Positions 15,501 to 52,938 of a stretch of 53,114 bases of DNA are shown here, in pieces. The DNA lies in assembly GCA_903934035.1 (NCBI GenBank), contig CAIZMK010000094.1, positions 1-53,114 of the forward strand. The letters run 5' to 3'. A program made the position numbers and the translations under genes. The notes beneath the pieces were generated by a model, which had not been told where the DNA came from, ran no database searches, and saw nothing but the letters and a program-made list of their open reading frames with translations. How positions within the stretch are numbered: the stretch's first letter is position 1; the number at the start of each line of letters is the position of its first letter. Source of the DNA: an uncultured Methylococcaceae bacterium. GTDB lineage: Bacteria; Pseudomonadota; Gammaproteobacteria; Methylococcales; Methylomonadaceae.

Positions 15501-15746
15501 AGCCGTATCATATAGCATTAATTAATCTCAGATACGAATGCTTTTAAATAGGACACAGAAATAGGCTTAACATGGCGTTTAATATCTCTGCTTTGTTCGA
15601 AAATCCTTAATAATTGCCCTCATCTATAGTCATAGGTATCAGCACAATTAATGATCCCTGTAGGGTAAGCATAGCTAGCTAGGTTTAAGTTTTAAAAACT
15701 AGTACCTTGTAGTGGCGACAGATGAAACCTTTTTTAGTCTTTACTG

Positions 15747-15947
15747 CATAGGTATCTACACAAGTTTCTTATCGGCGTGGAAACGATAAAAATCACCGTA
15801 AGGGCGTATTGCATACGCCCAACATCGAAAGTCCAATGTTATAAAGCTTATTTTACAAGGGCGTATGCAATACGCCCCTACGATCTTCACCACAATGTTA
15901 TCGTTCTCGCGTGGGAATGCTAACCATTATTTGTGTAGATACCTATG
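15747..15947. mobile_element. MITE-like element M, copy 1 (intact, perfect 9-bp target duplication)
   Basis: This 201-bp non-coding element is bounded by perfect 17-bp inverted repeats, CATAGGTATCTACACAA and TTGTGTAGATACCTATG. It is flanked on both sides by TCTTTACTG (15738-15746 and 15948-15956), a perfect 9-bp target-site duplication. Inside lie two copies of the 19-bp palindrome GGGCGTATTGCATACGCCC or its near-inverse (15802-15820, 15859-15877) and mirrored AACGATAA arms, so the whole element can fold as a long cruciform. It has no open reading frame, so it is a non-autonomous element. Related copies are at 40857, 41711, 45675, 50033 and 52794. Confidence 0.88.
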
Positions 15948-16036
15948 TCTTTACTGTTGGCAGTGATGCAGCAGAAGGGTAATAATATGCCGTATGCATG
16001 TGAGTCATCTTAATAGGTGTAGAGAAAAGTCCATGC

Positions 16037-40856: not shown

Positions 40857-41058
40857 CATAGGTATCTACACAAGTTTCTTATCGGCGTGGAAACGATAAA
40901 AATCACCGTAGGGGCGTATTGCATACGCCCAACATTGAAAGTCCAATGTTATAAAGCTTATTTTATAAGGGCGTATGCAATACGCCCCCTACGATCTTCA
41001 CCACAATGTTATCGTTCGCGCGTGGGAATGCTAACAATTATTTGTGTAGATACCTATG
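40857..41058. mobile_element. MITE-like element M, copy 2, nested in an F5 repeat
   Basis: The 202-bp copy has intact 17-bp ends CATAGGTATCTACACAA/TTGTGTAGATACCTATG and both internal GGGCGTAT...ATACGCCC palindromes. It is nearly identical to copy 1. It is flanked by CCCCTACAAG (40847-40856) and CCCCTACAG (41059-41067), a target duplication with one extra base. The target is the TCGCCCCTACAGTATG segment of an F5 repeat, whose right part continues after the insertion. Confidence 0.88.
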
Positions 41059-41710: not shown

Positions 41711-41875
41711 CGATAAAAAACACCGTAGGGGCGTATTGCATACGCCCAACATCGAAAGTCTATATGTTATAGAGCTTATTTTATAAGGGCGTATGCAATA
41801 CGCCCCTACGATCTTCACCACAATGTTATCGTTCTCGCATGTGAATGCTAACAATTATTTGTGTAGATACCTATG
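41711..41875. mobile_element. MITE-like element M, copy 3 (left end lost)
   Basis: The copy keeps CGATAAAAAACACCGTAGG, both 19-bp palindrome regions, the ATGTTATCGTTCTCGC arm and the right end TTGTGTAGATACCTATG. Its left terminal 35 bp are replaced by a REP half (GTTGGGTTAGCGATA). It directly abuts the interior of an F3 repeat, so it was inserted into F3 before or during the loss of the left side. Confidence 0.82.
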
Positions 41876-45555: not shown

Positions 45556-45665
45556 CTGTAGGGGTGACAGATTCGCCCCTACAATATGATTTCCGAGGTA
45601 TATGACTATTTATGTCACATGAACTGCCATAATGATGTTGGTTTTTATTTGTGTAGATACCTATG
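45556..45665. repeat. Repeat family F5, copy 1
   Basis: This 110-bp repeat begins with a hairpin (GTAGGGGTGACAGATTCGCC followed by CCTAC) and ends TTTTTATTTGTGTAGATACCTATG. The last 17 bp are exactly the M-element terminal repeat. It is paired with 52666-52775, with the same length and order. The M element copy 4 starts 9 bp further on. Confidence 0.7.
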
Positions 45666-45674
45666 CTTGAATAG

Positions 45675-45874
45675 CATAGGTATCTACACAAATAATTGTT
45701 AGCATACCCACGCGAGAACGATAACCTTGTGGTGAAGATCGTAGGGGTGTATTGCATACGCCCTTATAAAAACGTCTATCACATTGGTTTTTTGATGTTG
45801 GGCGAATGCAATAAGCCCCTACGGTGTTTTTTTATCGTTTCCACGCCGATAAGAAATTTGTGTAGACAACTATG
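45675..45874. mobile_element. MITE-like element M, copy 4 (inverted orientation)
   Basis: The 200-bp copy starts CATAGGTATCTACACAAATAATTG and ends GAAATTTGTGTAGACAACTATG, so its right terminal repeat has diverged. Order of arms is reversed relative to copies 1 and 2. Flanks are CTTGAATAG (45666-45674) and CTTGTGTAG (45875-45883), matching at 7 of 9 positions, consistent with an old 9-bp target duplication. Confidence 0.82.
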
Positions 45875-50032: not shown

Positions 50033-50280
50033 CTTAGGTATCTTCACAAGTAAATTAGCGAAATACTGGCACAATTGTAGGTCGGGTTACGCTATCGCTA
50101 ACCCGACCAACTCTTATCGGTGTAGGAACGATAAAAACATCGTAGGGGCGTATTGCATGCGCCCAACATCAAAAAACCAATGTGATAGACGTTTTTATAT
50201 AGGCGTATGCAATACGCCCCTACAAGCTATCATCACAATATTTTTGTTCATGCGTTGGAACGAAAATAATTCTGATGAAG
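50033..50280. mobile_element. MITE-like element M, copy 5 (degenerate, interrupted by a REP)
   Basis: The left end CTTAGGTATCTTCACAAG is a two-mismatch version of the M terminus. The inner GGAACGATAAAAACATCGTAGG and both GGGCGTATTGCATGCGCCC-like palindromes are clear. The right end is eroded. A complete REP palindrome, GTAGGTCGGGTTACGCTATC and onward (50078-50108), sits in the left arm and explains the greater length. The element ends about 45 bp before tex, so it may affect its promoter. Confidence 0.72.
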
Positions 50281-52665: not shown

Positions 52666-52775
52666 CTGTAGGGGCGACAGATTCGCCCCTACAGTATGAT
52701 TTCCCAAATTTATGTGTACTCATGCAAGATTGAACTGCCCGAATGATGCTGCTTTTTATTTGCGTAGATACCTAT
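52666..52775. repeat. Repeat family F5, copy 2
   Basis: 110 bp, beginning with the hairpin GTAGGGGCG-ACAGATT-CGCCCCTAC and ending TTTTTATTTGCGTAGATACCTAT, one base different from the M-type terminus. It aligns with 45556-45665 over its whole length, without length change. Confidence 0.7.
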
Positions 52776-52793
52776 ATTCTTTAGCCTTTAGGG

Positions 52794-52938
52794 CATAGGT
52801 ATCTACACAAGTTTCTTATCGGCGTGGAAACGATAAAAAAACACCGTAGGGGCGTATTGCATAAGCCCCTACGATCTTTGTCAAAAGGTTATCGTTCTTG
52901 CGTGGGAATGCTAACAATTATTTGTGTAGATACCTATG
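52794..52938. mobile_element. MITE-like element M, copy 6 (internal deletion)
   Basis: This copy is 145 bp with intact 17-bp termini. Between CGTAGGGGCGTATTGCATA and AGCCCCTACGATC the middle of the element is missing, leaving only one fused palindrome. Flanks CCTTTAGGG (52785-52793) and GCTTTAGGG (52939-52947) agree at 8 of 9 positions, a good target duplication. Confidence 0.87.

Follow-up and report, generated by a model that had tools for sequence, protein, structure and literature searches.

The 17-bp inverted ends and 9-bp flanking repeats described here mark a MITE family which, as judged from sequence comparison, is very probably moved in trans, now or formerly, by the cut-and-paste activity of an IS50 (Tn5)-type transposase of the IS4 family. 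The ends, the duplications, an empty site in a relative and parental insertion sequences (IS) in other genomes, which carry the same ends and use similar targets, are all observed, and a Tn5-like fold is predicted for the parental transposase. The window is the whole stretch of DNA that was analysed, 53,114 nucleotides long, and corresponds to contig C94 of the host genome (G000), a draft of 3.19 Mb in 295 contigs with a completeness of 98.1%. The host is taken to be a methane-oxidising gammaproteobacterium of the Methylococcales, the order within which its relatives were searched.

Copies of the element in the window

The 17-mer occurs in the window in 14 matches with at most 3 mismatches, whereas 100 dinucleotide shuffles averaged 0.16 matches and never exceeded 2. 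The following features are distinguished:

15631..15647, plus strand: lone degenerate end with 2 mismatches, own partner not recognised
15738..15746: left 9-bp target duplication of copy 1, TCTTTACTG
15747..15947, plus strand: copy 1, full-length, core type A, 201 bp, both 17-bp terminal inverted repeats perfect
15948..15956: right 9-bp target duplication of copy 1, TCTTTACTG, a perfect match to the left one
40857..41058, plus strand: copy 2, 202 bp, type A at full length, perfect at either end, a one-base indel in its duplication
41711..41875, plus strand: copy 3, type A, truncated, left end lost, perfect right end at 41859-41875
45649..45665, minus strand: right end of a type B neighbour of copy 4, left end not recognised
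45666..45674: 9-bp spacer CTTGAATAG, which separates two adjoining elements and doubles as the left duplication of copy 4
45675..45874, minus strand: copy 4, type A, inverted relative to copy 1, 200 bp
50033..50280, plus strand: copy 5, decayed type A, additional sequence close to the left end
52760..52776, minus strand: right end, with 2 mismatches, of another type B element
52794..52938, plus strand: copy 6, short type A, 145 bp, one REP hairpin

The ends of copy 1, CATAGGTATCTACACAA on the left and TTGTGTAGATACCTATG on the right, are without mismatch and enclose an inverted pair of GTAG-type REP hairpins. When the sequence was reread, the perfect 17-bp ends and perfect 9-bp flanks that the initial annotation had reported for this copy were found with the coordinates it gave. 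Its six copies in 53 kb all exist, but two of them are incomplete, the one at 41711 having only a right end and the one at 50033 only a left end. The inventory also has to include the two type B right ends and the lone degenerate ends at 15631 and 41131. In copy 5 the left end has 2 mismatches and the right end is absent at up to 3 mismatches, and the end coordinate is approximate because the right end is unrecognisable. The decayed duplications likewise agree with the earlier description: one extra base at 40857, 8/9 equal positions at 52794 (CCTTTAGGG/GCTTTAGGG) and 7/9 at 45675 (CTTGAATAG/CTTGTGTAG). Copy 3 is followed by a CTCTTTAGCAAAGAGG hairpin, and such hairpins serve as a target elsewhere. 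The hairpin of the type B element at 45649-45665 has the form GTAGGGG...CGCCCCTAC. A search of the window with Rfam at the gathering threshold gave two tRNAs and nothing else.

Copy number and anatomy in the host genome

The genome-wide search for the 17-bp ends, proposed with the original description, gave 124 + 127 = 251 ends with at most 2 mismatches (62 + 69 exact), and none with the reversed control. The family thus comprises of the order of a hundred copies rather than six. The structure of the family was studied in 81 host stretches (1,124,898 bases), picked mostly for holding ends. Mechanical pairing of convergent ends, with at most 4 mismatches and 60-450 bp apart, sorted 215 ends into 56 convergent pairs and 103 unpaired ends; at least one pair is an error, in which 15631 was joined with the right end of copy 1 (15631-15947). 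Two size classes are commonest: elements of 199-204 bp contain two inverted REP-like hairpins, and those of 144-145 bp a single one.

The cores were typed by motif matching at 157 ends with at most 2 mismatches, 13 of which lay too near a stretch edge and were dropped. The remaining 144 fall into type A (120), type B (11), type C (3) and others (10). Types A, B and C are mutually unlike in sequence, and the 17-bp ends are common to them. The type A core is composed of GTAGGGGCGTATTGCATACGCCC, a spacer and the inverted GTAGGGGCGTATTGCATACGCCC. Of the 166 REP cores in the host sample, 138 have an end no more than 200 bp away; the 28 others include several decayed elements and a few doublets with different spacers, such as L216:105-193 and L238:9358-9429, which are remote from any end. 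The genome also contains six matches to Y1-type (IS200/RAYT-like) transposases (C267, C111, C204, C289, C183 and C53), which are possible movers of the REP hairpins.

Two other repeats share the same stretches. The first has inverted ends GAGGCTGTGAAAGTATT(C), with 97 matches at up to 1 mismatch in 1.12 Mb, and is located at L268:3451-3734 and in many host stretches. At some insertion sites, nearby copies of this repeat include the hairpin CCCCTCTTTGCTAAAGAGGGG, a target of the 17-bp element, and one copy lies inside a 17-bp element. The other is a small palindromic element with ends of about CAATGTCATTAAGTTAAGGA / TCCTTAACTTAATGACATTG (L220:2961-3246 and L226:1176-1463), which sits within copies of the 17-bp element.

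Target duplications and an empty site

Exact repeats flanking the 56 host pairs are 9 bp long in 14 cases and 5 bp long in one, and repeats of 4, 6-8 or 10-14 bp were found at none of these pairs. The perfect duplication of copy 1 is outside the 14 because the pairing assigned its right end to 15631. The flanks match in at least 7 of 9 positions at 30 of the 56 pairs, compared with about 3% after left and right flanks were shuffled. Among the 26 pairs below this level, some (40857, L266) match once shifted by a few bases, and others have no recognised duplication. The excess of 9-bp flank matches, on which the initial annotation had staked its reading, is strong and specific to length 9.

An orthologous empty site, which had been suggested as a further check, was sought in the same-genus genome G018, from which 0.8 Mb was fetched. 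Both flanks were found there for nine host sites: six are occupied in both genomes, one is cleanly empty and two are ambiguous. At the clean site, G018 (L310:15781-15789) holds one copy of the 9 bp, and the corresponding host locus is L244:2802-3003; the flanks, 600 bp each, are 94.7% and 96.3% identical. The junction reads ...GTGTCACAAAGAG in G018 and GTGTCACAAAGAG, 202 bp, CACAAAGAG in the host. Since the duplication is present at the filled site, the difference is most naturally explained by gain in the host; movement has thus taken place after the split of G000 and G018, and most of the compared copies are older. Terminal inverted repeats, a target duplication of constant length and an empty site in a relative, three features that define MITEs, are all present. 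A second apparent empty site (L301 vs L228) was rejected, as its flanks match only over short stretches, which are part of a repeat.

Target preference and neighbouring insertions

The target set comprised 36 sites with at least a 7/9 match, 30 from the host and 6 from G018. Their consensus is the palindromic CYYTWARRG, and 13 of them lie within hairpin repeats of the type CCCCTCTTTGCTAAAGAGGGG. All but one of the 56 host pairs are outside reading frames of at least 100 codons or at a frame edge, compared with 80% of random positions that fall inside such frames. A strong hairpin as the sole target determinant is weakly supported: the median folding energy is -8.5 for the 36 empty sites vs -6.0 for random noncoding sequence (p = 0.0016), but just two of the 36 are in the lowest 5%. 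The targets are better explained by sequence preference than by hairpin strength.

Some elements adjoin each other. Among the six cases with a gap of at most 60 bp, the gap is 9 bp in five, as is expected if a fresh duplication is a good target. At L258:2299-2653, two elements are separated by the 9-bp CCTTTTAAG and have CTCTAAAAG on both outer sides. This shared outer duplication suggests that the pair moved as one composite unit. Tn5 is a known case of such behaviour, in which two IS50 copies move together as one unit.

The probable parent insertion sequence in other genomes

The exact 17-mer is present in 71 of 311 genomes of the order, covering 15 of 50 genera and two families. In three of the sampled loci (L069, L071 and L090), pieces of a reading frame lie directly inside the end. 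A query with the N-terminal portion of the L069 frame found relatives in 31 of the 311 genomes, and each of the 30 loci fetched with this transposase query (L103-L132) has one or both ends within 2 mismatches. A full-length element with the same ends and a transposase, which the first description had recommended looking for, is thus found, in other genomes. The fifteen tabulated IS copies have both ends with at most 4 mismatches, 1275-1386 bp apart; fourteen are 1356-1386 bp long, and one degraded copy is 1275 bp. The clearest is L105:1440-2807, with 1368 bp, a 428-codon frame and the 9-bp duplication CGCTCATGC on both sides. Both ends are exact only in L105, and most others are one base off (CATAAG or CATAGC). 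Of the 14 copies with both flanks present, examined in a fixed frame, six have perfect 9-bp duplications, two more have 7/9 and the remaining six are lower.

The IS also resembles the MITE in its choice of target. A matrix built from the 36 MITE targets of G000 and G018 ranked 12 IS sites elsewhere at a median in the top 0.2% of the 15-mers of the same locus (range 0 to 5.9%); the other three of the fifteen IS, in which a flank or an end is lost or decayed, were not ranked. In a scan of named genomes, 56 transposase loci were found, some duplicating records of the order search. Of the 29 loci in which end repeats were tested, 24 have inverted repeats of at least 15/17 around the gene, most containing TCTACACA, and the other five have none. 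Loci with inverted repeats come from Methylococcales, Gallionella, Thiomicrorhabdus, Deefgea, Thiothrix, Legionella and planctomycetes, and the exact end CATARGTATCTACACAA is present in 10 of 24 genomes chosen from the 56 loci. Within the order, the exact end occurs in 19 of 31 transposase-bearing genomes vs 52 of 280 others, an association that is weak because the IS's own ends are counted and shared ancestry is uncorrected.

One relative of the transposase, 40% identical to the parent's, is encoded on a Serratia marcescens IncC plasmid (L375; NZ_AP014611.1, 150958-153390), where its gene is flanked by an IS30 gene and sul1. Viral contigs gave five stretches with the exact 17-mer, none with a second end within 450 bp. 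Four of these are probably chance matches, because they form two near-identical pairs in other contexts; the fifth (L100), with element-like flanks, may be a real single end. No match was found in phage records searched with copy 1.

Family assignment of the transposase

The residues Y313, R316, E320, K327, D87 and D183 are invariant in seven parental transposase sequences, and again in sets of 10 and 11. They represent the YREK motif, Y-(2)-R-(3)-E-(6)-K, and the DDE triad, the two aspartates of which are assigned by position. The Pfam model DDE_Tnp_1 scores above its cut-off (30.9 vs 23) and Tnp_DNA_bind below (18 vs 24), and the best transposase model in NCBIfam, IS4_3, reaches 92 bits, below its cut-off of 160. 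Sequence searches of the PDB with the transposase, profile included, gave nothing. The predicted structure has a pLDDT of 77.8, with low confidence in the N-terminal 45 residues, and of its six best structural matches in the PDB (E 1.6e-14 to 8.9e-10, query TM 0.52-0.57), five are entries for Tn5 transposase and the sixth is one for a 'transposase inhibitor'. TACACAAGT, at end positions 11-19, equals the same nine bases of what we take to be the Tn5 outside end, and the first 19 bases match that end at 12 of 19 positions, a level of 11 being reached by 0.4% of shuffled ends.

The subgroup IS50 is defined by ends of the form CW------Y---CA-A--W-, a length of 1350-1550 bp, direct repeats of 8-9 bp and the YREK motif (PMC2266710, as given in its Table 1). 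CATAGGTATCTACACAAGTT and the consensus of 12 IS fit all seven specified positions of this end consensus, and the length, the direct repeats, YREK and a predicted Tn5 fold were each found. The likeness to IS50/Tn5 therefore covers the 9-bp duplications, the motif, the element size, the end consensus and the predicted fold. Unlike in Tn5, the 17-bp end starts with CATARG rather than CTGACT, no cargo gene was seen in the elements examined, and the transposase is 13-16% identical to that of Tn5 in the structural alignments. From sequence and structural model together, the parent, left unassigned by the initial annotation, resolves as a putative IS50 (Tn5)-type transposase of family IS4, located in related genomes. 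A separate observation concerns the NCBIfam flagellar FlhF model NF011312 (PRK14723.1), which spans most of the transposase with E 6.8e-33, far below its cut-off; this model may include transposase-contaminated sequence.

Distribution of the transposase and of the ends

The parental transposase gave 0 matches in the host with both the N-terminal query and a full-length profile, and the same two queries gave 0 matches in G018, the closest MITE-rich relative. These two genomes are the richest in exact ends among those of the order search. The N-terminal query had no match in 52 of the 71 end-bearing genomes, and the more sensitive profile detected transposase fragments in some of them, e.g., G019 and G020. 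The host DDE_Tnp_1 loci (L065-L067) were considered as parents and rejected: none has a 17-bp end at up to 3 mismatches in the fetched stretch, and L066 has one 4-mismatch match. The earlier proposal, that the element is non-autonomous and that its transposase is encoded at another place in the same genome, is thus borne out in part: movement in trans is supported by the 9-bp excess and the empty site, but the enzyme was not detected in that genome. As neither query detected the transposase in the draft, the family looks orphaned in the host, and the host copies are probably leftovers of past activity or dependent on a copy missing from the draft assembly. A Tn5-like parent with the same ends in relatives explains how the family could spread despite this.

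An intact parent IS may nevertheless have collapsed out of the draft, so that the family would not be orphaned at all. Short-read assemblies often lose multicopy elements, and many of the 295 contigs end in or near an element. We regard this as rather unlikely in view of the high completeness of the draft, the 0 matches with both queries and the successful assembly of the transposase in other fragmented genomes of the order.

Cores across genera

The ends and the cores differ in their distribution. The exact end CATARGTATCTACACAA is present in 6 of 369 genomes across the class, the host included. The body of copy 1 was matched in 10 of 151 related genomes (five candidates scored per genome), full-length matches being limited to the host and three congeneric genomes. 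For a survey of the cores, 26 loci were picked for apparent end pairs; 24 gave a pair, one element being represented twice, in 20 genomes, and two had none. Every one of these 24 cores is more stably folded than its 60 dinucleotide shuffles are on average (z -2.1 to -10.3). Within the host genus, five genomes (G000, G002, G016, G018 and G030) have GTAG-tagged hairpins; CGTC-tagged hairpins are found in G089, G187 and G188, and other core hairpins (CCCTCTCC..., GGTTGGGTTAGC...) elsewhere, including G007, which also belongs to the host genus. The most unusual feature of the family is that its ends stay constant and its hairpin cores vary.

Both forms of the element are found together in the Gallionella bin STB_49 (G313), the stretches of which were picked at places with exact ends. 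Two IS copies of 1362 bp each have CCTTGAAGG on both flanks, and twenty short pairs were listed (two overlapping), mostly of 274-290 bp with mostly exact ends. Ten of those listed have perfect 9-bp repeats, which are CCTTGAAGG or CCTTCAAGG in six of the ten. A blastn comparison of one IS with one short element found the 17-bp ends in common and otherwise chance matches of 8-10 bases; therefore, the short elements are not simple internal-deletion derivatives. At two loci of this bin with different outer flanks (L355:6973-8705 and L357:756-2489), a short element stands in an identical arrangement about 82 bp from a full IS, which would reflect duplication or composite movement.

Proposed mechanism and alternative explanations

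In the proposed mechanism, the transposase would recognise the 17-bp ends and excise the element, which would then be joined across a 9-bp stagger at the palindromic CYYTWARRG; roughly one target in three lies within another hairpin repeat. Repair of the stagger would generate the 9-bp duplication. The core would not need to code, and in many genomes it contains REP-like hairpins. Here we infer both the chemistry of the reaction and the movement of the host copies by the parental transposase.

Two other origins were considered. If the repeats were spread by REP-associated tyrosine transposases (RAYTs), the pair of core hairpins would be the mobile unit and the ends its passengers. The GTAG-tagged inverted REP doublet of type A is indeed REPIN-like, Y1-type transposases are matched in the genome, and some doublets with other spacers lie away from the ends. 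It is, however, the 17-bp ends that the duplications of exactly 9 bp adjoin, the empty site lacks the entire element with its ends, unrelated cores occur between the same ends, and the great majority of REP cores are close to an end, which makes this explanation extremely improbable. Internal deletion of the IS, the textbook origin of MITEs, would account for the identity of the ends in the IS and the short elements. It is nonetheless very unlikely to have produced them, as the one pair compared in STB_49 has nothing significant beyond these ends in common and the core types A, B and C of the host are mutually unrelated.

Movement by the Tn5-type transposase is compatible with a more specific, tentative reading of the cores, to which we give well under even chances: a modular transposon, in which a fixed Tn5-type 17-bp end cassette has acquired, independently across genera, the REP/REPIN hairpins common in each genome. 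If so, two mobility systems would be combined, with DDE ends outside and RAYT-recognised hairpins inside, and a feedback would arise, as insertion into hairpin repeats recreates a target beside each new copy. The combination of constant ends and changing REP cores makes the entry and exit of REPs from mobile elements testable by comparison of genomes.

Relation to known elements

The family links an abundant repeat of methane oxidisers, undescribed in the literature searched, to a named transposase subgroup. Tn5, the best-known member of the IS50 subgroup, is a laboratory workhorse, and the elements described here are natural, highly amplified minimal Tn5-like substrates with defined ends and a target preference. 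The 17-bp element is a new family of a known kind of element. Literature searches with the 17-bp end sequence and two pieces of it gave no match, and publications on MITEs, IS50/IS4, methanotrophs and REP, judged mostly by titles and the first lines of abstracts, did not describe it. The 2024 review of prokaryotic MITEs mentions IS50 and Tn5, and not IS4, in the sections available (PMC10969869).

The type A core resembles REPINs in being an inverted REP doublet (PMC3116915, in part) with the tag GTAG (PMC3733652, in part). In the portions of these two papers that treat them, REPs are described without DDE-type ends or 9-bp duplications, whereas the 17-bp element moves with both. QMITE2 of Coxiella burnetii sets a precedent, being a MITE of about 190 bp with terminal inverted repeats, a REP core and duplications of 7-9 bp, as outlined in excerpts of PMC5896051 and PMC10969869. 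Its core was likewise described earlier as a GTAG REP, and short forms resemble bare REPs; unlike in the 17-bp element, its inverted repeats measure 23-29 bp, the comparison being one of descriptions and not of end sequences. These excerpts do not name a parent.

A second similar element is the hupL MITE of Candidatus Thiomargarita nelsonii, of about 205 bp, with matches on 260 of 439 contigs and, according to its authors, no parent in ISfinder (PMC4853749, in part). A 10-bp direct repeat overlaps its 19-bp inverted repeat by one base. As described in that part of the paper, this layout matches the 17-bp element, and by analogy the hupL MITE may belong to the same family.
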